Origin: Glutamicibacter halophytocola
GTDB taxonomy: Bacteria; Actinomycetota; Actinomycetes; Actinomycetales; Micrococcaceae
Assembly: GCF_001302565.1 (NCBI RefSeq)
Contig: NZ_CP012750.1
Span: 372,001 to 436,000, forward strand
Reading direction: 5' to 3'
DNA length: 64,000 nucleotides
Shown: piece after piece, positions 1,363-23,168 of the stretch
How positions within the stretch are numbered: position 1 is the stretch's first letter
Layout: each line of letters starts with the position of its first letter
Translations under genes and position numbers: made by a program
Notes under the pieces: model-generated
Told to the model about the DNA's origin: nothing
What the model saw: only the letters and a program-made list of their open reading frames with translations
The model's database searches: none

Positions 1363-3324
1363 TTAGCGGCGTGCCCGGCAGATTGCATTGATCTCGGGAA
1401 TGCACGGTTCATTCTGCAGGCTGGTGGTGTCACCCAGCGTGGTTCCTTCAAATAGCTGTGTGAGCAGGCGGCGCATGATCTTGCCCGAACGGGTTTTGGG
1501 AACATCCGGTACCAGCAGCACATCGCGCGGCTTGGCAATCGGGCCTATCTGGGTGGCTACCGTGGAACGAAGCTCAGCTATGAATTGTGCCTGGCGCGCG
1601 GCGAGCTGCTCATCAGGGTTTTCGCCAATCAGCGACTTGTCCAGGGGCACCACGAAGGCGGTGGCCGCATGTCCGGTTTTTGCATCCGGGGTGGGGCAGA
1701 CGCCGGCCTCGACGACACCGGAGTTGGTGACCAGCGCAGACTCGATTTCAATGGTCGATAACCGGTGCCCGGAAATATTGATCACGTCATCGGTGCGGCC
1801 CAGGATGAAAATATCTCCATCCTCGTCAAAACGTGCCCCATCGCCGGCGAGGAACCAGCCTTGCTGGACGTACTTCTCCCAGTAGCTGGTGTAGTAGCGT
1901 TCAGGGTTGCCCCATACCGTGCGCGCCATGGACGGGCCGGTGCGGGTGATGACAATATTGCCCTGGGTATTGGGCTCAACTCGCTGTCCCTGGGCATCAA
2001 CGATATCCACGGAAACGCCCGGCAGGGCACGGGCGGCGCAACCTGGCTTGAAGTAGTCGTCGGTCGGCAAAGGGGAGAGGACCGTCGCCCCGGACTCGGA
2101 CTGCCACCAGGTATCCACCATCGGAATGCCTGCCGGGGTATCACGGCCAAGCTGTTCGCGCAGCCACCGCCAGGCCTCCGGGTTAACGGCTTCGCCAACG
2201 GTGCCGCCGACGTTGATGGAGGACAGGTCGTAGGATTTGGGAATGCCCTCGGGGAACCAGCCCATCAACGAGCGGACCAAGGTCGGGGCCGTGTAGTAGC
2301 TGGTGACCTTGTAGCGTTCGACGACTTCGAAGTGGCGTCCGGGATGCGGCGCGTTGGGCACGCCTTCATAAATCACCTGGGTGACGCCGTTGGATAGCGG
2401 TCCATAGATCTCATAGGTGTGGGCCGTGATCCATGCCAGGTCCGCGGTGCACCAGTGCACGTCATTCTCGCGCTGGGAGGCATCCGGGTTGGCGAAGAGC
2501 ATGTTGTAGCTGGCGGCAGCCTGGGTCAGGTAGCCACCGGTGGTGTGCACCAGGCCCTTGGGCTGTCCGGTGGTTCCGGAGGTGTACATGATGAACAGCG
2601 GAGTTTCGGAGTCGAAGAACTGCGCTTCATGTTCGGTGGGCTGGGTGTCGACAACATCGTGCCACCAGACGTCGCGGCCTTCGGTCCACGGGATCTGATC
2701 GCCGGTGCGTCGAATGACCAGCACTTTTTCGATTTCATTCTCGCCGGAGACCGCTTCGTCGGCATTGTCCTTGACAGGCACCGAGGTGCCGCGGCGGAAT
2801 TGGCCATCGGTGGTCACCAGCACCTTGGCCTTCGTGTCTTCCACGCGGAACTTCAACGCTTCGGCAGAGAATCCGCCGAAGACCAGCGAGTGGACGGCGC
2901 CGATGCGGGCGCAGGCCAGCGTGATGACGACGGTTTCGATGAGGACCGGAAGGTAGATGACCACGCGGTCGCCTTTGGCCACGCCCAAGGATTCCAAAGC
3001 GTGGGCGGCCTGGCTGATGCGTTCTTGCAGGTTCTTGTAGGTGACGGCCACCCGGTCGCCGGGTTCGCCCTCGAAATACAGTGCGACCTTGTCTCCGCGG
3101 CCGGCGGCCACATGCCGGTCGGCGCAGTTCACCGCGGCATTGAGCTTGCCACCCAGATACCAGGAGATCTGCGGTCCGCGCTTGGCTTCCGGGTCAGCTG
3201 GGAGGATCTGGCTGGTGGTATGCCAGCTGGTGTCCCAATCAAGGAGGCGTGCCGCGTCGTCCCAGAATGCTTGGCGTGCTTCCTCTGAGGCAAATGCAGA
3301 GGTTGGTGCCGATTCGATGGTCAT
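1363..3324 (-). CDS. acs: Acetyl-CoA synthetase (AMP-forming)
   Basis: Makes acetyl-CoA from acetate, ATP and CoA through acetyl-AMP, in the cytoplasm. 653 residues, the usual Acs length. Visible motifs are the P-loop-like SGTTGQPKG, the adenylate motif WWQSESG, the hinge region GRTDDVINISGHR and the C-terminal TRSGKIMRR. The lysine of that last motif is catalytic and is the known acetylation switch in the family. The ATG at 3322-3324 follows an AAGGAA ribosome binding site. The frame stays open another 109 codons upstream, but that stretch is low quality. A SAM-clan riboswitch on the same strand lies about 350 bases upstream with a short ORF between. A propionyl-CoA synthetase is the alternative. 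Confidence 0.93.
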   Translation of the reverse strand: MTIESAPTSAFASEEARQAFWDDAARLLDWDTSWHTTSQILPADPEAKRGPQISWYLGGKLNAAVNCADRHVAAGRGDKVALYFEGEPGDRVAVTYKNLQERISQAAHALESLGVAKGDRVVIYLPVLIETVVITLACARIGAVHSLVFGGFSAEALKFRVEDTKAKVLVTTDGQFRRGTSVPVKDNADEAVSGENEIEKVLVIRRTGDQIPWTEGRDVWWHDVVDTQPTEHEAQFFDSETPLFIMYTSGTTGQPKGLVHTTGGYLTQAAASYNMLFANPDASQRENDVHWCTADLAWITAHTYEIYGPLSNGVTQVIYEGVPNAPHPGRHFEVVERYKVTSYYTAPTLVRSLMGWFPEGIPKSYDLSSINVGGTVGEAVNPEAWRWLREQLGRDTPAGIPMVDTWWQSESGATVLSPLPTDDYFKPGCAARALPGVSVDIVDAQGQRVEPNTQGNIVITRTGPSMARTVWGNPERYYTSYWEKYVQQGWFLAGDGARFDEDGDIFILGRTDDVINISGHRLSTIEIESALVTNSGVVEAGVCPTPDAKTGHAATAFVVPLDKSLIGENPDEQLAARQAQFIAELRSTVATQIGPIAKPRDVLLVPDVPKTRSGKIMRRLLTQLFEGTTLGDTTSLQNEPCIPEINAICRARR

Positions 3325-3400
3325 TACAGAGTATTCCTTGGAGTGTCTATTCGGTGGCTGGTTTGGTACTTGATCGCTAGTGCCCTCGGGCCCGGGGCTT

Positions 3401-3664
3401 TTATGGCGCGGCGTTCGGAGGCAGCGAGCAGGGCAACGGCAAGTATTCCGAGGAAGGCCAGCTGTTGCTTGTGCCCTGGAGGTTCTTGGCCGAGGCGAAT
3501 TGCCTGTCTTTGCCCATAGCCCGTTGCGGCTGCGAGCCTGAAAGCGCGGTGCGGCTCTGTGCCGTGGTGGCGAATCTGCGCGAGAAATTGGCGAGGCCGG
3601 CGCCCAGCGCCATGGATGCGAGGCCCGGGTACTGCATTTGAGGCTGCGCAAAGCACAGTGCCAT
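3401..3664 (-). CDS. Possible 87-aa ORF directly behind a SAM riboswitch
   Basis: Not recognised. This is the first ATG after the minus-strand riboswitch. A GGAG ribosome binding site (3671-3674) overlaps the 3' edge of the riboswitch P1 helix and sits 6 bases from the ATG, an arrangement that would let SAM binding hide it. The predicted product begins MALCFAQPQMQYPG and has no clear domain, signal or membrane helix. The other two frames across this stretch are also open and look no better, so it may be the eroded start of a lost sulfur gene rather than a true small protein. It ends 76 bases before acs. Confidence 0.3.
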   Translation of the reverse strand: MALCFAQPQMQYPGLASMALGAGLANFSRRFATTAQSRTALSGSQPQRAMGKDRQFASAKNLQGTSNSWPSSEYLPLPCSLPPNAAP

Positions 3665-3672
3665 GATCATCT

Positions 3673-3769
3673 CCATCGGTCCTGGCGGTAGCACCGGCCT
3701 ATGGAAGGTGTCCTCCATAGGTGGTTGCTGCGGTGTCACTGAGCCAGATCTCTCGGCCGCTCGGGATGG
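3673..3769 (-). ncRNA. SAM-clan riboswitch (SAM-I or SAM-I/IV type)
   Basis: Read on the minus strand, the P1 arms are GGATGG-complement and CCATC-complement at the two ends. Between them are the conserved blocks GCGGCCGAGAGATCTGGCTC, the core GCAGCAACC and GGTGCTACCGCCAGGACC. These match the SAM-I core (GAGGGA, TGGCCC, GGCAACC, GGTGCTA) without a clear P4 hairpin, which points to the SAM-I/IV variant. The blocks are nearly identical to those of the elements at 4043 and 10220. Its first downstream gene is uncertain (see the ORF at 3401 and acs). Confidence 0.87.
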
Positions 3770-3779
3770 TTACACGTCT

Positions 3780-4031: not shown

Positions 4032-4042
4032 TGAATGACGAC

Positions 4043-4128
4043 CCATCCAGAGCGGCTGAGAGATCTGGCTCGACGACGCCGCAGCAACCACCCGAAAAGG
4101 GAGACGGTGCTACCGCCAGGACCGATGG
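4043..4128 (+). ncRNA. SAM-clan riboswitch ahead of a monooxygenase operon
   Basis: P1 is CCATCC (4043-4048) paired with GATGG (4124-4128). Between them lie GCGGCTGAGAGATCTGGCTC, GCAGCAACC and GGTGCTACCGCCAGG, the SAM-I core blocks, again with no P4. The next ribosome binding site (GAGG, 4137-4140) starts only 9 bases after P1, and the ATG is at 4148. No terminator fits in that space, so control is probably by access to the ribosome binding site. Confidence 0.9.
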
Positions 4129-4147
4129 AAAGAATTGAGGACTTTTA

Positions 4148-5488
4148 ATGTCATTTGGCGAGTTGCCAAACACCTCCGGTTTGGACTTCAACCATCTCAG
4201 CGATCCTTCGCAGGCTAGCGCCATGGGACTAGACGACTTCGAAGAGCAGCTGCCCACGCGGCAACTGCTCAAGGTCACCCCCGGCCCCGGCGCGGATGAG
4301 CAATACGACCGGCTGGCTGAAATCTTCCGTCCGGTCTTCGCGCAAATCGCCAGCACCGCCAAGGACCGCGACCGCAACCGCGTTCTGCCCTTCGAGCAAG
4401 TAGGCCTGCTCAACCGCGAACGTTTCGGCGCACTGCGCATCCCGGTTGCCGAGGGCGGATACGGCGCGCGCCTGGTCGACGTGTTCCGCTTGCTCATCGA
4501 GCTGTCCGAAGCCGACTCGCATGTCGGCCAGCTGTGGCGCGCGCATATCGCGTTCGTGGAAAACGTGCTGGTCCTCGACGACCAAAAGCTGCGCAGCAAG
4601 TGGACCGCCCGCATCGCCGCCGGGCAAATTGTCGGCAACGCCTACACCGAACGCGGTGGCAATGCCCTGGGTACGCTGAACACCAAGGTGAGCCAGGTTG
4701 ATGGCCGCTGGCTGGTGGACGGTGAAAAGTACTACTGCACCGGCACCATTTTTGCCGACTGGACCACCGTGGCCGTGGCCCACCCGGAACTGCCCGGGCG
4801 CCAGATCGCGGTAGTCTCCACCCAGCACAGCGGCGTCAAGATCCTTGATGACTGGGATGGCTTTGGCCAGGGGCTCACCGGCACCGGAACCACAGAGTTC
4901 CACCAGGTCCCGGTGGACACGTTCATGCCGCAGCAGAGCAACGACTCCGAAGCGGCGATCTTCCAGCTGGTGCTCATGGCCGTGCAGGCAGGTATCGCCC
5001 GGGCGGCCCTGAATGACCTGCGCATTTCGGTGCAGAACCGCACCCGCATCTTCACCACCGGCACCGGCGTTCCGGTGCACCGCGAACCACAGGTGTTGCA
5101 ACTGGTCGGCGAGGTGTCCGCAGAATCCTTCGCCGCGGACTCGGTCGTGATCGGCGCCGTCCTTGAAGTCGAAGCCGCACTGGTGGATCCGGGGCTCAAC
5201 GACGAGGAACGCTATGCGGTCTGCGAACTGGCAGCCAACCGGGCGCAAACCATCGTCCAGCCACTCGTCATCGGTGCCACCAGCAAGCTCTTTGACGGCC
5301 TGGGCGCATCCTCGACCAGCGTCATCTGCAACCTGGACCGGCACTGGCGCAACGCCCGGACCATCGCCACCCACAACCCGGCCATTTACAAGGCCCGCAT
5401 TGTGGGGGATTACGAGATCAATGCGGTCCAGCCGCAACGACTCTCGGTCACCGGCGAAGACAGCAACCATCGAGCCCACGGCGCCTGA
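4148..5488 (+). CDS. DszC/SfnB-like flavin-dependent monooxygenase (acyl-CoA dehydrogenase fold)
   Basis: 446 residues with the acyl-CoA dehydrogenase fold of group D flavin monooxygenases, which use reduced FMN and oxygen to oxidise organosulfur compounds in the cytoplasm (DszC, SfnB/SfnC relatives). Visible features: an N-terminal helical domain from about residue 50, the strand-domain signature TERGGNALGTLNTK, GEKYYCTGTIFADW, the motif ILDDWDGFGQGLTGTGT, and the C-terminal helical end DRHWRNARTIATHNP. It has about 45 extra N-terminal residues compared with its paralogue at 12940. A SAM riboswitch precedes it and a luciferase-like monooxygenase follows after 51 bases, so a two-enzyme sulfur-scavenging unit is likely. 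The substrate is unknown and no flavin reductase gene is nearby. Confidence 0.88.
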   Translation: MSFGELPNTSGLDFNHLSDPSQASAMGLDDFEEQLPTRQLLKVTPGPGADEQYDRLAEIFRPVFAQIASTAKDRDRNRVLPFEQVGLLNRERFGALRIPVAEGGYGARLVDVFRLLIELSEADSHVGQLWRAHIAFVENVLVLDDQKLRSKWTARIAAGQIVGNAYTERGGNALGTLNTKVSQVDGRWLVDGEKYYCTGTIFADWTTVAVAHPELPGRQIAVVSTQHSGVKILDDWDGFGQGLTGTGTTEFHQVPVDTFMPQQSNDSEAAIFQLVLMAVQAGIARAALNDLRISVQNRTRIFTTGTGVPVHREPQVLQLVGEVSAESFAADSVVIGAVLEVEAALVDPGLNDEERYAVCELAANRAQTIVQPLVIGATSKLFDGLGASSTSVICNLDRHWRNARTIATHNPAIYKARIVGDYEINAVQPQRLSVTGEDSNHRAHGA

Positions 5489-5539
5489 GCGCGAACCACA
5501 AATCTTCACCACTACCCAACCACGGCAAGGGGAACATCA

Positions 5540-6940
5540 ATGAGCCAGCAGCGCGAAATTCTCTTCAACGCATTCGACATGAACTGCGTGGTGCACCAGT
5601 CGCCAGGCCTGTGGCGCCACCCGGATGACAAGGCCTCGACCTACAACACCATCGGCTACTGGACCCACCTGGCCAAGGTACTGGAAAAGGGCAAGTTCGA
5701 CGGCCTGTTCATCGCCGATGTCCTGGGCACCTACGATGTTTTCAACGGCACCAATGAGTCCCCGTTGCGCTCCGGCGCCCAGGCCCCGGTTAATGACCCG
5801 ATGATGCTGGTCTCCGCCATGGCAGCGGTCACCGAGAACCTCGGCTTCGGCGTCACCGCGGGCACCGCCTACGAGCACCCCTACGCTTTCGCCCGCCGCC
5901 TGGCCACCCTGGACCACCTGACCAACGGCCGCGTGGGCTGGAATGTCGTGACCGGGTACCTGCCATCGGCCGCCCGCAACATGGGCCAGGAAGACCAGAT
6001 GGAGCACGACGAGCGGTACAATCACGCCGATGAATACCTCGAGGTCGTCTACAAGCTGCTCGAAGGCTCGTGGGAAGACGACGCCGTGCAGAACAACAAG
6101 GAAACCGGGATCTATACGGACCCGGCCAAGGTGCACAGCATCGAGCACGAAGGAAAATTCTTCAAGGTGCCCGGAATCGCCATCACCGAGCCTTCCATCC
6201 AGCGCACCCCGGTGATCTACCAGGCCGGCGCCTCGTCGCGCGGCATCAAGTTCGCCTCGGAAAACGCTGAAGCAGTATTTGTCACCAGCCCGACCCGTGA
6301 AATCCTCAAGGCCACCGTCGCCAAGATCCGCGATGCCGCAGAGGCCGCCGGCCGCGACCGCTACGATGTGAAGATCTTCGCGATGCAGACCATCATCACC
6401 GATGAGACGTCCGAGAAGGCCCAGGCCAAGTACGAGGATTACAAGTCCTATGCGGACGTTGAAGGTGCGCAGGTCCTGATCTCCGGCTGGATGGGCATTG
6501 ACCTGTCGGAGCTGAACCCGGATGAGCCATTGGGCGCCAACCTGAAGTCCAACGCCATCCAGTCCACCGTGGAAACCTTCCAGAAGGCCAGCGGCGACGA
6601 CGGCAACCCGTGGACCATCCGCCAGTTGGCCGAATGGGTGGGCGTGGGCGGCTTCGGCCCGATCACCGTCGGCTCGGGCGCCGAGGTGGCCGAGAAGCTC
6701 ATCGACTGGGTGGACTATACCGACGTTGACGGTTTCAACCTGGCCTACGCGGTCACCCCGGCAACCTTCGAGGACGTTGTCGAATACGTGGTTCCCGAGC
6801 TGCAGGCTCGCGGCGCCTACAAGACCGAATACGCCCAGGGCTCGTTGCGCAACAAGCTCTTTGGCGAAGGGGACCGGGTGAAGGAGACCCATCGCGCCGC
6901 GCAGTACAAGATCTCCAATCGCCTGCCAGCTAAGGGCTAG
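5540..6940 (+). CDS. NtaA/DmoA/DszA-like FMN-dependent monooxygenase
   Basis: 466-residue luciferase-fold (group C) monooxygenase of the nitrilotriacetate/dimethylsulfide/DszA family. It needs FMNH2 from a separate reductase. Family features: the opening NAFDMNCVVHQSPGLWRHP, GKFDGLFIADVLG, LDHLTNGRVGWNVVTGY, and the C-terminal VVPELQARG...QGSLRNKLFG. The start has an AAGGGG ribosome binding site. It is second in a riboswitch-led operon with the DszC/SfnB-like gene. In the dibenzothiophene (Dsz) pathway such a pair oxidises a sulfide and then opens the resulting sulfone, so sequential action is plausible here. The substrate is an inference only. Confidence 0.9.
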   Translation: MSQQREILFNAFDMNCVVHQSPGLWRHPDDKASTYNTIGYWTHLAKVLEKGKFDGLFIADVLGTYDVFNGTNESPLRSGAQAPVNDPMMLVSAMAAVTENLGFGVTAGTAYEHPYAFARRLATLDHLTNGRVGWNVVTGYLPSAARNMGQEDQMEHDERYNHADEYLEVVYKLLEGSWEDDAVQNNKETGIYTDPAKVHSIEHEGKFFKVPGIAITEPSIQRTPVIYQAGASSRGIKFASENAEAVFVTSPTREILKATVAKIRDAAEAAGRDRYDVKIFAMQTIITDETSEKAQAKYEDYKSYADVEGAQVLISGWMGIDLSELNPDEPLGANLKSNAIQSTVETFQKASGDDGNPWTIRQLAEWVGVGGFGPITVGSGAEVAEKLIDWVDYTDVDGFNLAYAVTPATFEDVVEYVVPELQARGAYKTEYAQGSLRNKLFGEGDRVKETHRAAQYKISNRLPAKG

Positions 6941-9932: not shown

Positions 9933-10219
9933 GAAGTCCTCTCGTAGGTTTGCACTCCAGTACAACCACGGCGCCCAGCACAGAATTCCCGCACCATGAT
10001 CGCTGGCGCATCGATGGCCAGAGGTGCAAGTTCTTCAAGCCTTTTCGTCTTAAAGGGAGCAAGTGACGAAATATTTCGTATTGCTACGCGGATTATTGCG
10101 TGATTCCTTTCCCGGTCCGTCCGAACTGCGACTTCATGACGCTGATTGACGTAACGTTTGCCGGCTTGCATCCATGGAGGACAGACTTGAATTGTTCGGG
10201 CGGTACAACCGAACACACA

Positions 10220-10303
10220 CCATCCAGAGCGACTGAGAGATCTGGCTCAACGACGTCGCAGCAACCACCCGTATGGGAGCGGTGCTACAGCCAGGACCGA
10301 TGG
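10220..10303 (+). ncRNA. SAM-clan riboswitch ahead of metNIQ
   Basis: P1 is CCATCC (10220-10225) with GATGG (10299-10303). Core blocks are GCGACTGAGAGATCTGGCTC, GCAGCAACC and GGTGCTACAGCCAGG. It differs from the other two copies mainly in helix-compensating positions. The location upstream of methionine transport genes is the classic one for this RNA. The region 9933-10219 before it holds the divergent promoters and no gene. Confidence 0.92.
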
Positions 10304-10391
10304 AGTACTTTCACTTCGCGACGGAAAAATCTGTCCCCAGCAGATGGTTTCTTGCGAAGTACGCTCCGCATAACCAAGCATCAAGGGAGCG
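10302..10391 (+). promoter_or_regulatory. Likely translational expression platform of the metN riboswitch
   Basis: CGCTCC (10362-10367) can pair with GGAGCG (10386-10391), which contains the metN ribosome binding site AAGGGAG. The same CGCTCC, with AAGTA before it (10357-10367), can instead pair with GGAGTACTT (10302-10310), whose GG belongs to the 3' arm of P1. Formation of P1 with SAM would therefore free CGCTCC to hide the ribosome binding site. The pairings are seen in sequence and the switching is inferred. Confidence 0.55.
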
Positions 10392-11198
10392 ATGATGATT
10401 CGTCTTGAGAACGTAACAACAACCTTCGGCAAAGGCCGCGACCAGTTCACGGCCGTCAAGGATGTCACGCTGGATATTCAAGCCGGAAGCATTCACGGTA
10501 TTATCGGTTTTTCCGGTGCCGGCAAATCCACGCTGTTGCGCAATATCAATTTGCTCCAGCGCCCGACCTCGGGCCAGGTCTTTGTTGACGGCGTAGAACT
10601 GACCGGGCTGAGCGAAGGCGAGTTGCGCAAGCAGCGCCATGAGATCGGGATGATCTTCCAGCACTTCAACCTGCTGAACAATCGCACCGCGCAACAGAAC
10701 GTTGAACTGAACCTGAAGTTCGCCGGTGTGCCCAAGAAACAACGCCGCGAACGTGCCCTGGAAGCACTATCCATCGTGGACCTCGCCGACAAGGCGTCCG
10801 CCTATCCTGGACAGCTCTCGGGCGGGCAGAAGCAGCGCATCTCCATCGCCCGCGCGCTGGTCACCGAGCCCAAGGTCTTGTTGTGCGATGAACCTACCAG
10901 CGCGGTGGATCCGCGAACCACTACCTCGGTGCTCCAGTACCTCAGCGACATTAACGCCAGCCTTGGCATCACCACCGTTATCGTCACCCACGAAATGAAT
11001 GTCATTAAGGCCATCGCCGACAAGGTCTCGGTGATGGAAGACGCCGCGGTCGTGGAAGAGTTCGCCCTGAGCTCGCTACAAGAACCAGGCTTTGAACCAA
11101 AGACGCCTATCGGCCGCTACCTGATCAGCGATGAAATCACGCTGAACCGCCAGCCCAAGCAGGCCCAAGACCTTGCCGCCAACGTAACCCGCGTATAG
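10392..11198 (+). CDS. metN: Methionine ABC transporter ATP-binding protein, lacking NIL domain
   Basis: 268 residues. The ATPase of the MetNIQ importer for methionine and related compounds, on the cytoplasmic face. Walker A is GFSGAGKST, the signature LSGGQKQR, Walker B VLLCDEPTSAVD and the switch histidine VTHEM. Typical MetN proteins have about 340 residues, with a C-terminal ACT-like NIL domain that binds methionine and shuts the transporter. This one stops about 70 residues short, so that feedback site appears to be missing. The start overlaps a tandem ATGATG, and the first ATG is best placed for AAGGGAG. It leads a five-gene run under a SAM riboswitch. Confidence 0.93.
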   Translation: MMIRLENVTTTFGKGRDQFTAVKDVTLDIQAGSIHGIIGFSGAGKSTLLRNINLLQRPTSGQVFVDGVELTGLSEGELRKQRHEIGMIFQHFNLLNNRTAQQNVELNLKFAGVPKKQRRERALEALSIVDLADKASAYPGQLSGGQKQRISIARALVTEPKVLLCDEPTSAVDPRTTTSVLQYLSDINASLGITTVIVTHEMNVIKAIADKVSVMEDAAVVEEFALSSLQEPGFEPKTPIGRYLISDEITLNRQPKQAQDLAANVTRV

Positions 11199-11214
11199 AG
11201 AACCTGGATTACCA

Positions 11215-11931
11215 ATGAACTTCACTTCAGTAGTGCTAGCCACGAGCAACGGCAGCGCAGCAGCATTCAGCCTTGACCGCATTGTGGAACTGGCCCCGGA
11301 AATCTGGGTGGCCATGGCACAGACCTTTGCGATGCTGCTGGTTTCGATCCCGATCGCCATTCTCTTGGGAACCCCGCTGGGCATCTGGCTCTATTCGATG
11401 TCTCCCAACGGCTTGCGCCCGCGTCCGCGAGTGCACAAGATTGTTGACGGGCTGGTGAATACGATCCGCTCCTTCCCATTCCTGATCTTGCTGATCGCCA
11501 TTATTCCGTTCACCCGATTTGTTGTGGGAACGACTATTGGCACCGCCGCGGTTATCGTGCCGCTGACCATCAACGCGATCCCGTATTTCGCCCGTTTTGT
11601 GGAGCAGAACATCAGCCAGCTGGGCAACGGAGTGGTCGAAGCCGCGCAGGCCATGGGAGCCACGCGCGGACAGATCATCCGTGAAGTGCTGCTGGTCGAA
11701 GCCAAGCCGGCGCTGCTGTCTTCCATCACCATCATGACGGTCAGCTTCATCTCGTACTCGGCCATGGCCGGTCTCGTTGGCGGCGGCGGCATCGGCGACT
11801 TCGCCATCCGCTACGGCTACTACCGCTATGAAACCGGAGTCATGCTGCTGGCCATCGTCTTGATGATCCTGCTGGTCCACGCAGTTCAATTCTTCGGAAC
11901 CCGGCTATCGCGCGCCGCTGACAAGCGCTAA
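11215..11931 (+). CDS. metI: Methionine ABC transporter permease
   Basis: 238 residues with about five membrane helices. The membrane channel of MetNIQ. The EAA loop that docks on MetN is visible as EAAQAMGATRGQIIREVLLVEAKPALL-like sequence near residues 140-165. It starts 16 bases after metN with only a weak ribosome binding site, which suggests coupling to metN translation. Strong family match by helix pattern, EAA loop and position. Confidence 0.93.
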   Translation: MNFTSVVLATSNGSAAAFSLDRIVELAPEIWVAMAQTFAMLLVSIPIAILLGTPLGIWLYSMSPNGLRPRPRVHKIVDGLVNTIRSFPFLILLIAIIPFTRFVVGTTIGTAAVIVPLTINAIPYFARFVEQNISQLGNGVVEAAQAMGATRGQIIREVLLVEAKPALLSSITIMTVSFISYSAMAGLVGGGGIGDFAIRYGYYRYETGVMLLAIVLMILLVHAVQFFGTRLSRAADKR

Positions 11932-11973
11932 ACACTGAACCACTCAACTCGCAATTCATCAAAGGACAACACC

Positions 11974-12846
11974 ATGGCTTTATCCCGCCGCACCTTTTTG
12001 ACCTTCACCGCCGGCTCCGCCGCAATTCTCGCACTGACTTCTTGCGGCCTGGTAGGCGGCCCAGAGGCCAGCTCGGGGGATAAGACCATCAAGGTCATCG
12101 TCACCGAATCGGCTCCATCCCAGGAACCAACCAAAATCGCCCAGAAGCTGCTGGCTGAAAAGGGCTGGACCCTGGAAGCCACCTATGTCACCGACATCGT
12201 GCAGCCAAACCACGTGGTGTCCAACGGCGAATACGATGCCAACTTCTTCCAGCACGGTGCCTACCTTGAACAGTTCAAGAAGGACCAGAACGTCGACGTG
12301 GAGCCGGCCTTCTACATGTACAGCTCGCCGGCAGGCGTGTACTCGAAGAAGTACGACGACATCAAGGACCTGCCTAACGGTGCGACCATTGCCCTTCCTG
12401 TGGATACCGCCAACAACGGCCGCGCGTTGGCGCTGCTGGATCGGGCCGGGCTCTTGAAGGTCACCGAAGGCAAGAGCGTGATCCACCTGTCGCAGAACGA
12501 CATCCTGGAGAACCCCAAGAACTTCAAATTTGTCGAGGTGGATCAGCAGTCGCTGTCCAAGACGCTTCCCGACGTGGATGCAGGATTCCTCTTCGCCCGC
12601 CTCGGTGCGGAAATCGGGCTCACCCCGAAGGATGCGCTGCTCTTTGAAAAGGAAGAAGAGGCGCTGCCATATATCAACATCATCGCCGCGAAGCCAGGCT
12701 TCATGGACACCGAAAAGGGCAAGGCCCTGGAAGAGGCCTACCATTCCGACGAGGTGCGCGAATGGTATGCGAGCTATCTTGACGGTGCGCTGGGCACCCC
12801 ATGGGATCGCGATCTGGAAGCAGACTTCGCGACCTGGAACAAGTAG
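11974..12846 (+). CDS. metQ: Methionine-binding lipoprotein
   Basis: 290 residues. The extracytoplasmic binding protein of MetNIQ, anchored to the outer face of the membrane by lipid. The N-terminus carries a twin arginine (SRRTFLTF) and a lipobox ending LTSC, which suggests Tat export followed by lipidation. The body has the NLPA/MetQ family pattern (QPNHVVSNGEYDANFFQH, YSSPAGVYSKKYDDIKDLP, LPVDTANNGRALALLD). AAGGA ribosome binding site, 42 bases after metI. A hairpin follows, but the monooxygenase genes beyond it are on the same strand and may be read through. Confidence 0.94.
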   Translation: MALSRRTFLTFTAGSAAILALTSCGLVGGPEASSGDKTIKVIVTESAPSQEPTKIAQKLLAEKGWTLEATYVTDIVQPNHVVSNGEYDANFFQHGAYLEQFKKDQNVDVEPAFYMYSSPAGVYSKKYDDIKDLPNGATIALPVDTANNGRALALLDRAGLLKVTEGKSVIHLSQNDILENPKNFKFVEVDQQSLSKTLPDVDAGFLFARLGAEIGLTPKDALLFEKEEEALPYINIIAAKPGFMDTEKGKALEEAYHSDEVREWYASYLDGALGTPWDRDLEADFATWNK

Positions 12847-12852
12847 GCCATA

Positions 12853-12887
12853 GGCCCCGCGACGCCGCTTTTCCGTGTCGCGGGGCC
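12853..12887 (+). terminator. Hairpin terminator or attenuating stem after metQ
   Basis: GGCCCCGCGAC (12853-12863) and GTCGCGGGGCC (12877-12887), an 11-pair GC-rich stem. It is followed by CGCCACTTTT, a short T run a few bases late, so termination may be partial and let some transcripts reach the next pair of genes. Confidence 0.7.
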
Positions 12888-12939
12888 GCCACTTTTCCGA
12901 CCTAGTACTCAAATTATCGACGTCCTGCAGGGAGAACCA

Positions 12940-14157
12940 ATGACGATTGTCGCCACGGCAGCTGCCGAGAGCAGATATCAGGAGCTTCTCGACCGCTTCA
13001 GCGCGGTCTTCGCCCGAATCGCCGAAGGCAGCCGCGAGCGGGAACAAAGGCGCATCCTGCCCTTTGAGCAGGTGCAGTGGCTCAAAGAGGCCGGATTTAC
13101 CACGCTGCGCGTGCCAGAGAGCCATGGCGGATCACCGATTAGCCATGAGCACCTGTTCCGCTTGCTGATCGAGCTGGCTGCAGCGGACTCCAACGTGGCG
13201 CACCTGCTGCGCAGCCACTTCTCCTTCGTTGAAACCATCTCCCTGCAGCCAGCAGAATTCCAGGACCGCTGGTTCCCCAAGGTGCTTGAGGGGCAGATCT
13301 TCGGCAATGCCGCCACCGAGCGCGGTGGCAATGCTTTGGGCACCACGAATACCAAACTGGTGAAGAAGACCGTCGGCTGGGTTCTGCATGGCGAAAAGTA
13401 CTACACCACAGGGTCGATTTTTGCCGACTGGATTGTGGTCATGGCAACGACCGAAGGGGTCGAAGGCCGCCAGTATGCCGTCGTTGACCGGAATGCCGAA
13501 GGCGTTGAAATACTTGATGACTGGGATGGCTTTGGCCAGCCGCTGACCGGCACCGGTACCGCCATTTTCTCTGAAGTTCTTGTCGCGCCGGAGAACATTA
13601 TCCAGCGCAAGGTGGCGTCCACCCTGGAACCGGCCTTCTTCCAGCTGTGCCTGCTTTCGGTACTGGTAGGCATCGGCAAGGCTGCCCGAAATGAAGCTGC
13701 CAGCATCGTGGCCACCAGAACCCGTACCTTTAATACCGGCTCCGGTTCGCTGTTCAAGGATGATCCGCAGATCCAGGAACTCGTGGGACGCCTGGCGGCC
13801 AACGTATTTGCCGCAGAATCCATTGTCACCATGGCTGCCCGGGAACTGGACGCAGCCGTTGACCAGCAGCTGGGGCTTGACCCGGAAGCAGCCTACCTGC
13901 GTGCAGAGCTGGCCGTGCAGCAGGCCCACGTGGCAACGCCCAAGCTGATCCTGGATGCCACCAGCGAGCTCTTTGACGTCACCGGGGCATCAGCAGTGTC
14001 GACTTCCAAGTCGCTGGATCGTTTCTGGCGCAATGCACGTACCGTAGCTACCCACAATCCGGTGGCCTTCAAGGCACGCTCGGTGGGCGACTACTTCATC
14101 AATGGCACGGTGCCGACCGGATTGAACTCCATCGGCGAAGCTAAGGCAGGCAAATAA
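12940..14157 (+). CDS. Second DszC/SfnB-like flavin-dependent monooxygenase
   Basis: 405 residues, an evident paralogue of the gene at 4148. It shares RILPFEQV, FRLLIEL, TERGGNALGTTNTK, GEKYYTTGSIFADW, EILDDWDGFGQPLTGTGT and FWRNARTVATHNP. The acyl-CoA dehydrogenase fold is intact but, as in group D monooxygenases, it is used with FMN and oxygen. The GGGAG ribosome binding site fixes the ATG. It lies 93 bases after metQ and 2 bases before its partner luciferase-like gene, which suggests that the compound imported by MetNIQ, or one related to it, is oxidised by this pair. Exact substrate unknown. Confidence 0.88.
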   Translation: MTIVATAAAESRYQELLDRFSAVFARIAEGSREREQRRILPFEQVQWLKEAGFTTLRVPESHGGSPISHEHLFRLLIELAAADSNVAHLLRSHFSFVETISLQPAEFQDRWFPKVLEGQIFGNAATERGGNALGTTNTKLVKKTVGWVLHGEKYYTTGSIFADWIVVMATTEGVEGRQYAVVDRNAEGVEILDDWDGFGQPLTGTGTAIFSEVLVAPENIIQRKVASTLEPAFFQLCLLSVLVGIGKAARNEAASIVATRTRTFNTGSGSLFKDDPQIQELVGRLAANVFAAESIVTMAARELDAAVDQQLGLDPEAAYLRAELAVQQAHVATPKLILDATSELFDVTGASAVSTSKSLDRFWRNARTVATHNPVAFKARSVGDYFINGTVPTGLNSIGEAKAGK

Positions 14158-19736: not shown

Positions 19737-20444
19737 CTACACGCAAGCCTTCAGGATGCGTTCGATGGCATCGTGTTCGCCCTTGGTCATCCAAGCCCCA
19801 TATTTCGCTTTGACCTGAGTCTGGCGTGAGACGTATTCGCAGCGGAAACTCTTGTTGGGAGGAAGCCATGTTGCGGCATCCTTGTCGCCTTTAGCCGCGT
19901 TCGTCGGCCCGTCCGAGGCCATGAGGTTTAGCGGGTCATTGGCGAATTCGAAACGAGCTTCCTGGTCCCAGCGCTGGGCGCCCTTTTGCCAGGCATCCGA
20001 CAGCGCGACAACGTGGTCGATCTGAACTGCGGTGCTGGTTTTCTGGCCCCGAACAAAATTGATGGTGGTGTTGGTATACGGGTCGTGGAAAGTTCCGCTG
20101 AGCACTACGCAAGGCTTCGACGCAGATTTGTATTTCACGTGTTCCAAGTCGCGAGCCAGGATGTCGTTGCGGGCATCGCAACCGTTGCGGTCCGGATCCT
20201 TCCAACCCTTGCTGAACTTTTCCCGTTCATAGCCAGTCTTGGGGGCACGGCCCTTGACGTCGATATCCGCGAGCAACTCAAGCGAGTCAGCATAGCTGGC
20301 GCGTTGCTCCGCGCTGTTGTGGGTAGTGTCAGCCTGCGCGTCGGGAACTCGATACTGCTCGATGGAATCAAGAGTTGAGCATCCAGTGAGGGCAAGGGAT
20401 GAAGCGATGAGTGCAAATGAGATTGCGCGGCGCAGCAGCTGCAT
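19737..20444 (-). CDS. HNH-family nuclease lipoprotein (DUF1524-like)
   Basis: 235 residues. The N-terminus (LLRRAISFALIASSLALTGC) is a signal peptide ending in a lipobox, so the mature protein should sit on the outer face of the membrane. The body matches the actinobacterial secreted HNH/DUF1524 type, with NGCDARNDILARDL, the nuclease motif QIDHVVALSDAWQKGA, FANDPLNLMASDGPTNAAKGD and a C-terminal YGAWMTKGEHDAI. The DHV histidine and the N-rich block are the expected metal and catalytic residues. Likely a cell-surface nuclease for nutrient use or for limiting DNA entry. No neighbours clarify its role. Confidence 0.9.
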   Translation of the reverse strand: MQLLRRAISFALIASSLALTGCSTLDSIEQYRVPDAQADTTHNSAEQRASYADSLELLADIDVKGRAPKTGYEREKFSKGWKDPDRNGCDARNDILARDLEHVKYKSASKPCVVLSGTFHDPYTNTTINFVRGQKTSTAVQIDHVVALSDAWQKGAQRWDQEARFEFANDPLNLMASDGPTNAAKGDKDAATWLPPNKSFRCEYVSRQTQVKAKYGAWMTKGEHDAIERILKACV

Positions 20445-20868
20445 GCGGAAGTACGACTCCTAGGAAAGCGACAGTTGGCAAGGGGGGACAGGCCCTTAGG
20501 AAACTATATGAAGCGGGGTGGACCATTTAGCTGCGTCCATGCCGTGTTTTAGTGTGAGATCGGTGTGAACCAGTTCTAGCGATCATGTCGAGACCTGCTG
20601 GCTATCGAGTTTCTGTTCCTCGATATGCATTGGTCAACTCGGTTTCCGACCTCAAGGCCGATTTATCTGTATCTTGTCGGGAAAGCAGCGAAGTGGTGGC
20701 ATGGGTTTCCTTGCGTTGCGCAAATCCCGCTGCCGAATGGAGCCGGGAAATCACGGTTCCAGATGGCGCTCAACCCCGGGTTGCCCAAGAACCGAGTGCT
20801 GATACGCGCGGGATTCATGAAGTAATGTTCTACAGCTAAGCCGTGCGTGTGCTACTAATGGGAGCAGT
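20445..20868. other. 424-base non-coding stretch before the TPP riboswitch
   Basis: Between the nuclease gene start and the riboswitch. It holds the promoter region of the nuclease gene and presumably that of the TPP unit. An 84-codon open frame (20585-20839) lacks a ribosome binding site and is not supported. No repeat or RNA was recognised here. Confidence 0.5.
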
Positions 20869-20943
20869 GACACGGGGTGCCGCAGGGCGGCTGAGAGAAC
20901 ACCCGTTGAACCTGATCCAGTTAGTACTGGCGAAGGGAATGTC
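20869..20943 (+). ncRNA. TPP (THI element) riboswitch
   Basis: The canonical blocks are all present in order: GGGGTGCC, CGGCTGAGA, ACCCGTTGAACCTGATC, CAGTTAGTACTGG and CGAAGGGAA. P1 is GACA (20869-20872) with TGTC (20940-20943). These are the TPP-binding CUGAGA and the pyrophosphate-side GAAGGGAA motifs. P3 is short, as in many bacteria. The first gene starts 100 bases downstream. No T-rich terminator is obvious between, so translational control is more likely. Confidence 0.96.
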
Positions 20944-21042
20944 CTGGATTCTGCGTATGTGTGCACCCGAAGTGCTTGAACCGTCCGCGTCTTTGGTCAA
21001 AAATCCATTCGCCAACAGACGCCGTCAAGGAGTTCAAACAAG

Positions 21043-21843
21043 ATGAGCACGGACACCCAATCACCAGCAACCCCCATTGCCCTTCCACTTGAAGAGCAGG
21101 TCATTCTTGTCACCGGCGGAGCTCGAGGGCTCGGTGCCGCCATCAGCAAGGCCTTCCTTGCAGCTGGCGCGAAAGTCGTCATCAATTACAACTCTTCGGA
21201 ACAAGCAGCCAATGATCTCGTCGCGCTCTACCCGAATGATGCAGTAGCCATTCAGGCTGATGTTCGCAACGAATCTGCGCTCAAGTCGATGGTGGCTGAA
21301 GCCGAAGATCATTTTGGACAGCCGGTGACAACTCTGGTGAACAATGCCTTGGTGGATTTCTCCTTTAATGGCGACGCCCGCTCCACCGCCGAAGCGATTT
21401 CCGCCGCAGAGCTCAGTGCCCAGTTCGCCGGATCGGTGCTGGCTCCCGTAGCTGCCATCCAGGCTGTACTGCCGGGAATGCGGCAAACAGGATTTGGCCG
21501 CATCATCAATATCGGCACCAACCTATTCCAGCACCCGGTGGTTCCGTACCACGACTACACCGCCACTAAAGCTGCGCTGCTGTCCCTGACCCGTACCTTC
21601 GCTGATGATCTTGGGCCAGAAGGAATCAACGTCAACATGGTTTCTGGAGGGCTCCTGCGCACCACCGACGCCTCGGCTGCGACCCCCGAGGCAGTATTCG
21701 ACCTGATCGCCTCGGGAACGCCATTGCGTCGAGTCACCACGCCCGCGGAACTGGCCGATACCGTCCTGTTTTTCGCTTCCCCGCTATCTCGTGGGGTTAC
21801 AGGTCAGAACCTTATCGTGGATGGCGGGCTGGTGAAGGGATGA
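21043..21843 (+). CDS. SDR family oxidoreductase under TPP riboswitch
   Basis: 266 residues, FabG-like short-chain dehydrogenase using NAD(P)H in the cytoplasm. The cofactor motif is TGGARGLG and the catalytic YxxxK is YTATK. Three positions are unusual. The residue 13 before the tyrosine is Thr rather than the usual Ser. NNAG is changed to NNAL. The usual PG after strand six is GG. It is therefore an SDR with an altered active site, and probably not the housekeeping FabG. AAGGAG (21027-21032) fixes the ATG. Its stop overlaps the next start (ATGA), and a TPP riboswitch lies upstream, so it should be expressed when thiamine is scarce. Substrate unknown. Confidence 0.9.
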   Translation: MSTDTQSPATPIALPLEEQVILVTGGARGLGAAISKAFLAAGAKVVINYNSSEQAANDLVALYPNDAVAIQADVRNESALKSMVAEAEDHFGQPVTTLVNNALVDFSFNGDARSTAEAISAAELSAQFAGSVLAPVAAIQAVLPGMRQTGFGRIINIGTNLFQHPVVPYHDYTATKAALLSLTRTFADDLGPEGINVNMVSGGLLRTTDASAATPEAVFDLIASGTPLRRVTTPAELADTVLFFASPLSRGVTGQNLIVDGGLVKG

Positions 21844-23168
21844 GCCAGAAGAAACAGGTACATCTGAATCTGTTCCTCTATGGAACCGGGCATCACCAAG
21901 CGGCCTGGCGTGCCGAGGACTCGGCGGCCGAAGAGCTTCCCGATACCCAGTACTACATCAAGCTGGCCCAGCTGGCTGAGAAGGGGCTGTTGGACGCGGT
22001 GTTCTTCGCCGATGGCCAAGCGGTGTCAGCCTCAGCTGCGCAGGCCGGTCCCACCTGGTTCTTTGAGCCGGTGACGCTGTTGTCGGCGATCAGCCAATGC
22101 ACCACGAATATCGGACTGGTCTGCACCATCTCGGCCAGCTTCTACTCTCCTTTCCACGCGGCACGCATGCTGGGCAGCTTGCAGCATTTGTCCAACGGGC
22201 GGGCCGGGATCAACGTGGTGACGAGCATGTGGGATACCGAAGCGCAGAACCATTCGCTCACCGAGCTGCCTGCGCACGCGCAGCGATATGGCAGAGCCGC
22301 AGAATTCATTGACGTCTTGCGCAAGTTGTGGGGATCATATCCGCATCAAGCAGTCCAAATTGACCGTGGCGGAAATTTCACCGATACGCGATTGCTTCAA
22401 GAAATCAATCACGAAGGCGAGCACTTCTCGGTGCGAGGTCCCTTGAATATGCCCAACTCAGTTCATGGCGAGCCTGTCATGTTCCAAGCAGGCTCCTCGC
22501 CAGCTGGCCGTGAACTGGCAGCAGCACACGCTGAAGCGATCTACTCGGTAGCAGCCGATCACGAGATGGCATCCGAATTCGCCCAAGACCTTTCCGAACG
22601 CACCAGAGCTTCGCGATGCTCGGACAACAGGGCGCTGATCATGCCCGGGCTGGTGACCTATGTGGGGCGCACAGCAGAAGAAGCCAAAGCCAAGCAGCGT
22701 GCACTGAACGAATTGCTGCCAACGGGGGACGCTCTGCGCCAGCTGGGAGTATTCTTGCAGCAGGACACCAGCCGCTGGCCTTTGGATGGACCCGTACCGG
22801 ATCTGCCGCCACTGGAAGAATTCACTGGCCCGGCTGGCCGATACACCACGATTCTGCGGCTCATCGAGCTGCACCAGCCCACGGTTCGTGAACTACTCGG
22901 CCTGCTGGCTGCTGGCGGGGGCCACTGCACCATGGTGGGAACGCCGGAAATGATTGCAGATGAGATTGAACTCTGGATCGATAGCGGGGCCGCAGATGGC
23001 TTCAACCTGATGCCGCCGTCCCTGCCAGGATCTCTGGAGGACTTCATTGAGCTAGTGATTCCGGAATTGCAGCGCCGTGGCAGATTCCGTACCCGCTACG
23101 AGTCGGCTACCTTGCGTGGAAATCTTGGTTTGGCTGTTCCGGAGGCTGTGGCCTTGGCGCGCGGCTAG
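21840..23168 (+). CDS. NtaA/DmoA-type FMN-dependent monooxygenase in the TPP-controlled operon
   Basis: 442 residues, luciferase fold, related to the enzymes at 5540 and 14160. It has LNLFLYGTGHHQAAWR, GLLDAVFFADGQAV, LQHLSNGRAGINVVTS, VMFQAGSSPAGRELAA and the C-terminal VIPELQRRGRFRTRYES. It requires FMNH2 from another protein. The start overlaps the SDR stop by four bases. TPP control and the pairing with an SDR suggest an oxidative step in salvage or breakdown of thiamine, its thiazole, or a thiamine-like sulfur heterocycle, but this is inference. The gene converges on a siderophore-binding protein gene and both stops share one CTAG. Confidence 0.9.
   Translation: MSQKKQVHLNLFLYGTGHHQAAWRAEDSAAEELPDTQYYIKLAQLAEKGLLDAVFFADGQAVSASAAQAGPTWFFEPVTLLSAISQCTTNIGLVCTISASFYSPFHAARMLGSLQHLSNGRAGINVVTSMWDTEAQNHSLTELPAHAQRYGRAAEFIDVLRKLWGSYPHQAVQIDRGGNFTDTRLLQEINHEGEHFSVRGPLNMPNSVHGEPVMFQAGSSPAGRELAAAHAEAIYSVAADHEMASEFAQDLSERTRASRCSDNRALIMPGLVTYVGRTAEEAKAKQRALNELLPTGDALRQLGVFLQQDTSRWPLDGPVPDLPPLEEFTGPAGRYTTILRLIELHQPTVRELLGLLAAGGGHCTMVGTPEMIADEIELWIDSGAADGFNLMPPSLPGSLEDFIELVIPELQRRGRFRTRYESATLRGNLGLAVPEAVALARG

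Follow-up and report, generated by a model that had tools for sequence, protein, structure and literature searches.

A TPP riboswitch in Glutamicibacter halophytocola stands ahead of two overlapping genes, encoding an SDR-family reductase (SDR) and an FMN-dependent luciferase-fold monooxygenase (LLM). The arrangement is conserved among relatives, where the pair is linked to thiM, thiE and thiD and to a TPP-controlled transporter, and within it the LLM gene depends on the SDR gene for its occurrence. It is likely that the unit serves the salvage of some thiamine moiety, and we tentatively read the whole as a TPP-repressed vitamin B1 salvage module, in which LLM would free a pyrimidine aldehyde and SDR would reduce it to HMP. 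The following features were located in the window, i.e., the whole stretch of 64,000 nucleotides that was analysed:

20863-20956, + strand: TPP riboswitch aptamer (THI element, RF00059), found with cmscan at 72.4 bits over the full length of the model (1-105)
20957-21042, + strand: leader of 86 nt from the aptamer to the SDR start, a putative expression platform, read from the sequence
21027-21032, + strand: Shine-Dalgarno AAGGAG, read from the sequence
21043-21843, + strand: SDR-family reductase, NCBIfam NF006393 / PRK08642, ORF of 266 aa, 402 bits against a cut-off of 292
21840-23168, + strand: LLM of the TIGR03860 NtaA/DmoA family, ORF of 442 aa

The aptamer exceeds the gathering score of its family (72.4 against 54.3 bits, E 2.6e-12 by cmscan) and the two reading frames overlap by 4 nt (ATGA), which bears out the initial annotation in its description of a complete THI element followed by two tightly overlapping genes. 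Five TPP sites were found in the whole genome, the locus aptamer being one of them and the one riboswitch of the window. From a reading of the open frames, the other four precede thiM-thiE-thiD, thiO-thiS followed by thiG, ykoE with an ABC ATPase, and thiC, the positions of ThiG and ThiC being backed by a family search. To our knowledge, the SDR-LLM pair is thus the sole member of this TPP regulon without a known thiamine function.

In the bacterial TPP riboswitches known to us, TPP turns expression off. When the leader tails were folded, between three and six of the six Shine-Dalgarno bases were paired in 11/11 loci of the genus (four in the window, the full length in L016), and in five of these 11 loci (L006, L007, L009, L012 and L014) a CCTTGA/TCAAGG hairpin lies over the Shine-Dalgarno. 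Five distant loci were tried as well: the Shine-Dalgarno is wholly paired in L103 and L117 and partially in L136 and L139, and in the fifth, L118, the site was misplaced by the search pattern. Leader folding hence fits an off-switch, which probably acts at the level of translation.

The SDR belongs to PRK08642 (402 bits, the second-best family reaching 160), a model that NCBIfam labels 3-oxoacyl-ACP reductase. FabG carries the canonical motifs NNAG, a catalytic Ser and PG, whereas the window protein has NNAL at 100-103, Thr159 and GG at 202-203, with Tyr172 and Lys176 intact. In an alignment of 91 rows, comprising the window and 90 fetched orthologs, Leu103 and the GG including Gly202 are found in 91/91 rows and Thr159 in 89/91 (Ser in two), while Tyr172 and Lys176, which form the classical Tyr-x-x-x-Lys active site of SDRs, are invariant (91/91). 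Since the altered residues are kept across the aligned rows, they mark the family and are not signs of decay. The protein also stays below the cut-off of the FabG equivalog model TIGR01830 (123 against 297.75 bits). The residues listed in the initial annotation, and its verdict that this is not a standard FabG, both stand. The protein is probably an aldehyde reductase. Its AlphaFold model (pLDDT 73.9) does not suffice for an analysis of the pocket, and a fold search with it returned generic SDR matches only among the best 50 rows.

The partner had been taken for a luciferase-fold monooxygenase, and both score and fold agree with this: it reaches 474 bits against TIGR03860 (cut-off 279.7), and its AlphaFold model (pLDDT 89.8) has CmoJ/YtnJ as best Foldseek match, followed in order by BdsA, NTA monooxygenase, LadA, EmoA, DmoA and riboflavin lyase. 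Its nearest solved relatives are CmoJ/YtnJ, BdsA, the NTA and EDTA monooxygenases and riboflavin lyase. Many of the related enzymes hydroxylate a carbon beside nitrogen or sulfur, whereupon the product breaks down to an oxo compound. In a tree that also includes 24 paralogs and two characterised enzymes, the 60 rows labelled as TPP-linked group in one branch of their own (support 95/99), which is to be taken as a check of coherence and not as an independent discovery, because the rows were picked by identity and four of the TPP-labelled ones lack a riboswitch of their own.

The initial annotation had named the absence of a riboswitch-operon linkage in relatives as one result that would undo its proposal; the linkage was found. 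Within the genus, an SDR over the cut-off is encoded in 11/18 genomes and absent from 7/18, a riboswitch lies upstream in 10/10 of the other SDR-bearing genomes of the genus and at 0/5 decoy SDR loci, and LLM directly follows SDR in 11/11 loci. In a sample of 295 genomes of the window's family, 86 encode an SDR matching at E <=1e-75, and in 84 of these the match also exceeds the curated cut-off. The riboswitch core pattern is present upstream in 39/41 genus and family loci, the window's own included; of the two remaining loci, L061 lies at a contig end, with just 490 nt ahead of SDR, whereas L070 lies in the thiMED operon of L195. Further afield, 80 named genomes were taken as the best matches to an SDR alignment. 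A TPP riboswitch on the same strand, about 330 nt or less upstream, was detected at 66/80 of their SDR loci with our own covariance model, which was trained on sequences from 19 of those same 80 loci, and at 65/80 with the plain core pattern. LLM lies immediately downstream of SDR in 62/80. Riboswitch and LLM occur together at 58 loci, riboswitch only at eight, LLM only at four and neither at 10, a co-occurrence with a Fisher p of 2e-5, uncorrected for descent. Because 14/80 loci have no upstream riboswitch, and 10 of those 14 no LLM either, the SDR may have other roles.

A connection to thiamine salvage emerges from the neighbourhoods of relatives. Genes of thiamine metabolism lie nearby in six of the first ten regions fetched, a set chosen with bias, and the arrangements are as follows:

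L195: TPP-thiM-thiE-thiD-SDR-LLM in one direction, with LLM split
L203: TPP-SDR-thiM-thiE-thiD, plus a separate TPP-LLM
L202: TPP-SDR-LLM-TPP-thiD-MFS-thiM-thiE
L196, L197 and, outside these ten regions, L173: SDR divergent from TPP-thiMED
L200: ThiO and ThiD inside 8 kb

The fetched regions of L198, L199, L201 and L204 gave no match to the thi proteins sought. In the named loci, within stretches of up to about 8 kb per side, a match to ThiD, ThiM/E/D or YkoE was seen in 7/80, and a sodium symporter (SSS superfamily) in 25/80; in 24 of these 25, a TPP riboswitch immediately precedes the symporter gene on its own strand. This TPP-controlled symporter, often near the pair in proteobacteria, is only distantly SSS (81-92 bits against a cut-off of 184). 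Across the family, ThiE (E <=1e-12) is encoded in 86/86 genomes with SDR and in 169/209 without (Fisher p 4e-7, uncorrected for descent); all association tests across genomes given here ignore the species tree. Both TPP control and linkage to ThiD, ThiM and ThiE, as expected for a salvage module, are thus present, the neighbourhoods being those of relatives and not of the window itself. The retention of ThiE, the thiMED operon neighbours and the TPP-controlled symporter make salvage of a thiamine moiety likely. The proposal of the initial annotation, an oxidative route for salvage or breakdown of thiamine, its thiazole or a degraded thiamine, is therefore upheld insofar as a unit under a TPP riboswitch is tied to salvage genes (thiMED, ThiE in 86/86), whereas the thiazole is not specifically favoured and it is improbable that thiamine is broken down as a nutrient, since TPP turns off the genes behind the bacterial TPP riboswitches known to us.

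A two-step chemistry would accommodate these observations. At low TPP, the riboswitch would permit synthesis of SDR and LLM, probably by freeing the Shine-Dalgarno. LLM presumably belongs to the two-component FMNH2/O2 monooxygenases that cleave C-N and C-S bonds. In a thiamine that is damaged or substituted, such as FAMP/AmMP-type compounds or exchange products of thiaminase, it would hydroxylate the CH2 carbon linking the thiamine pyrimidine to a nitrogen or sulfur atom. The hydroxylated product would be unstable and give the pyrimidine-5-carbaldehyde, which SDR would reduce to HMP, to be used by ThiD and ThiE. We infer the direction and mechanism of the switch, the substrate, the aldehyde and the HMP product, and consider this exact chemistry somewhat less likely than not.

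The order of dependence between the two genes fits such a sequence of steps. An LLM ortholog (at least 54 % identity) is encoded in 78 of the 295 family genomes, and SDR in 78/78 of these; conversely, 78/86 SDR genomes have the ortholog, and five of the remaining eight keep remnants of it. The LLM of L195 is broken into two frames, the match starts only at query residue 74 in L200 and L205 (one genus), and no more than weak or short pieces are left in L198 and L199, while no LLM match was seen in L196, L197 and L206 (one genus), the SDR of L206 itself matching in two frames. Where LLM is missing beside SDR, as in 18 named genomes, a search of the rest of the genome gave no match at E <=1e-60 in 15 and, in the other three, only matches of at most 45 % identity. 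In family genomes, LLM is hence able to decay while SDR persists. Most simply read, SDR would use the product of LLM but could also be supplied with this compound from elsewhere, since LLM implies SDR and not the reverse, as expected for a reductase that uses the product but also works alone. One might go further and regard SDR as the functional core, reducing an imported aldehyde vitamer; LLM would then be an optional enzyme, recruited separately, that acts on a different compound, derived from thiamine or even unrelated to it. Eight named genomes with a riboswitch-SDR and no LLM match anywhere at E <=1e-60 would suit this view, as would the five family genomes with remnants beside SDR and the LLM of L203, which stands under its own riboswitch apart from SDR. 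We nevertheless judge it unlikely: LLM is never found without SDR (78/78) and adjoins it in 62/80 named loci, so that its product most likely goes to SDR. That the relatives of LLM include catabolic enzymes (for EDTA, NTA and hexachlorobenzene) raises the alternative of detoxification, in which the pair, in response to TPP limitation, would remove a toxic thiamine antagonist or damaged thiamine (bacimethrin-like pyrimidines or oxidised thiamine, for instance) and recover no useful moiety. A gene of this kind should also occur in genomes without ThiE, whereas the tie to ThiE (86/86) and the thiMED operons fit supply better, which renders detoxification quite improbable.

Given that a thiamine moiety is salvaged, we lean towards the pyrimidine over the thiazole. 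Sorted by biosynthetic capacity, SDR is encoded in 48/92 ThiC-/ThiG+, 29/106 ThiC+/ThiG+, 9/92 ThiC-/ThiG- and 0/5 ThiC+/ThiG- genomes. Among ThiG+ genomes, SDR is associated with the lack of ThiC when unstratified (p 4e-4), but not significantly so when stratified by genus (odds ratio 0.57, p 0.29), nor across all 295 genomes (p 0.43). The preference thus remains a lean, and these values weaken the SDR-ThiC relation as a proof of a pyrimidine product. Genera differ in this respect: in the ThiG+ genomes of one, 15/15 with SDR lack ThiC, 4/4 with ThiC lack SDR and three have neither; in the window's genus, SDR is present in 3/3 ThiC-less genomes; and at least one other genus shows the opposite trend. 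The window's own genome retains thiC and thiG, hence it needs no SDR-LLM unit for de novo supply. On the thiazole side, LLM and SDR would turn an oxidised or substituted thiazole (cHET, or the aldehyde or acid of hydroxyethylthiazole) into hydroxyethylthiazole for ThiM. In favour of this, thiM is present in the linked operons alongside thiD and thiE, a TPP site precedes a thiM frame in the window's own genome, and an SDR would suit the aldehyde of the hydroxyethyl side chain. However, SDR is missing from the five ThiC+/ThiG- genomes, which would have the greatest need for thiazole (a small number), as opposed to 48/92 of the ThiC-/ThiG+ genomes, although the stratified test is not significant; the class counts lean to the pyrimidine, and we regard the thiazole, which the initial annotation had included, as a rather unlikely substrate side. 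A more radical variant makes LLM an oxidative thiaminase, which under TPP shortage would split the methylene bridge of thiamine, or of a close relative, to yield pyrimidine aldehyde and thiazole, whereupon SDR would form HMP, and ThiD, ThiM and ThiE would rebuild thiamine phosphate. If this were true, bacteria without thiamine pyrophosphokinase could use outside thiamine by dismantling and rebuilding it. We consider it very improbable; PF04263, the thiamine pyrophosphokinase family, was found in 0/55 family genomes, with and without SDR alike, and was therefore rejected as a discriminator, and its absence permits the idea but does not support it, because some of the genomes without PF04263 lack a ThiE match as well, and these must have another means of phosphorylating thiamine.

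Returning to the module as we read it, its closest precedent is cg0825 of Corynebacterium glutamicum, a short-chain oxidoreductase that, like SDR, stands behind a TPP riboswitch, there observed by RNA-seq, and whose role in thiamine metabolism was only guessed; in contrast to the locus described here, the available part of the source names no monooxygenase partner for C. glutamicum (PMC3890552). C. glutamicum is the sole named control genome over the PRK08642 cut-off, and cg0825 is presumably its PRK08642 protein. Such an SDR behind a TPP riboswitch had hence been noted before, with no function assigned. Among the open-access matches listed, judged mostly by title and abstract, no paper was found on the SDR-LLM pair or its function, and PMC3890552 alone touches on SDR. 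No thiamine paper on oarX was recognised by title among the matches listed. In a thiamine regulon study of 2002, 'oarX' is said to be a TPP-linked oxidoreductase.

For LLM, CmoJ/YtnJ, an FMN monooxygenase of modified-cysteine salvage in B. subtilis, is the best match in both fold and sequence (40 % identity, 305 bits). In the same species, the FMN monooxygenase ScmK (YxeK) hydroxylates its substrate, yielding oxaloacetate and free N-acetylcysteine, and thus offers a likeness in oxygenolytic cleavage within a salvage pathway, in that case of a modified cysteine, as far as the portion of the source at hand describes it (PMC12757645). Both systems differ from the present one in the class of substrate and in having acetyltransferase and deacetylase partners instead of an SDR, and in the tree the TPP-linked LLMs are separated from YtnJ by a branch of their own (95/99). 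We know of no TPP riboswitch for CmoJ/YtnJ or ScmK. Riboflavin lyase RcaE (PDB 5w48, 5w4z) shares family and fold with LLM (157 bits) and acts on a vitamin, removing the ribityl chain from riboflavin; it differs as a degradation enzyme with 29-30 % identity to LLM, and no riboswitch is known to us for it. Thiamine salvage has few known enzymes, and the chemistry of TenA, which is the usual route from AmMP, and of YlmB is hydrolytic, their proteins being unrelated to SDR and LLM. In the part of the source available, TenA/YlmB lead from FAMP/AmMP to HMP, the end product proposed here too (PMC10470507). As for transport, ThiV of SAR11 is an SSS symporter behind a TPP riboswitch and likely an HMP carrier, again from a partial view of the source (PMC11452348), and resembles the TPP-controlled sodium symporter that adjoins the pair in proteobacteria, the shared ground being the SSS superfamily.

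The analysis assigns two enzymes, with a short list of candidate substrates, to what had been an orphan part of the TPP regulon, and suggests an oxygen-dependent candidate route of B1 salvage in many actinobacteria and proteobacteria. If confirmed, it would reveal a fate of damaged vitamin B1, change predictions of B1 auxotrophy for soil and marine bacteria, and correct in many genomes the current annotations of the pair as fatty-acid reductase and nitrilotriacetate-type monooxygenase.

Regarding distribution, SDR is encoded in 13/396 genomes of a phylum-wide sample, and the named SDR-bearing genomes span Actinomycetota and Pseudomonadota. A third phylum was suggested by L121, labelled Sporosarcina beigongshangi (Bacillota), but was discounted, because the G+C content of its contig (66.5 %) and the neighbouring genes look actinobacterial: over a length of 66 residues, a TetR piece does not differ from one of a Micrococcaceae-family genome, and BioB is 79 % identical to that of another such genome. 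Matches to LLM at E <=1e-120 were present in 5/72,556 plasmid records, all below 60 % identity. A Bradymonas protein is 60 % identical to LLM.

The window contains two riboswitch-controlled operons that encode an FMN-dependent luciferase-fold monooxygenase (LLM), as a SAM-riboswitch operon carrying a second LLM lies <17 kb from the TPP-riboswitch operon. The SAM-riboswitch operon with the second LLM, two further SAM-riboswitch units and a gene upstream of the TPP riboswitch are as follows:

1363-3772, (-): SAM riboswitch and ORF with an above-threshold match to acetate-CoA ligase AcsA
4040-6940, (+): SAM riboswitch, SfnB/DszC-like oxidoreductase and TIGR03860 LLM
10217-14157, (+): SAM riboswitch, ABC ATPase, permease-like and substrate-binding-protein-like ORFs, SfnB-like gene
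19737-20444, (-): gene for a small GmrSD-domain protein

The operon with the second LLM (TIGR03860, 544 bits) is headed by a riboswitch scoring 57.1 bits and also encodes the oxidoreductase, which at 255 bits does not reach the cut-off of 431; the operon probably functions in sulfur salvage. At 10217-14157, the riboswitch (61.7 bits) is followed by a MetN-like ABC ATPase, which with 291 bits falls short of its cut-off of 500, one permease-like and one substrate-binding-protein-like ORF, both judged by eye, and finally another SfnB-like gene (12940-14157; 306 bits, below the cut-off). The minus-strand riboswitch (49.5 bits) lies upstream of the AcsA-scoring ORF (746 bits versus a cut-off of 725), to our knowledge an unusual target for a SAM riboswitch. 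The GmrSD-domain protein has a lipoprotein-like start; its C-terminal GmrSD domain, which is of the HNH type, scores 83 bits, and its gene lies upstream of the TPP riboswitch on the opposite strand.

In other genomes, PRK08642-like SDRs with 62-70% identity were found at ten loci (L115, L122, L127, L129, L151, L155, L166, L167, L176 and L179) where both the riboswitch and an adjacent LLM are absent, many of them, by record title, from Lysobacteraceae-type genomes. At L195, an SDR locus of genome G051, the LLM is the last gene of a thiMED-SDR operon and is split between two frames; this is possibly a case of LLM loss with retention of the SDR. Another contig of G051 carries a second SDR match. 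The contig of a further SDR locus, L121, was deposited as Sporosarcina beigongshangi, yet this public entry is probably mislabelled or contaminated, because its G+C content is 66.5% and the neighboring genes nearly match those of Micrococcaceae genomes.
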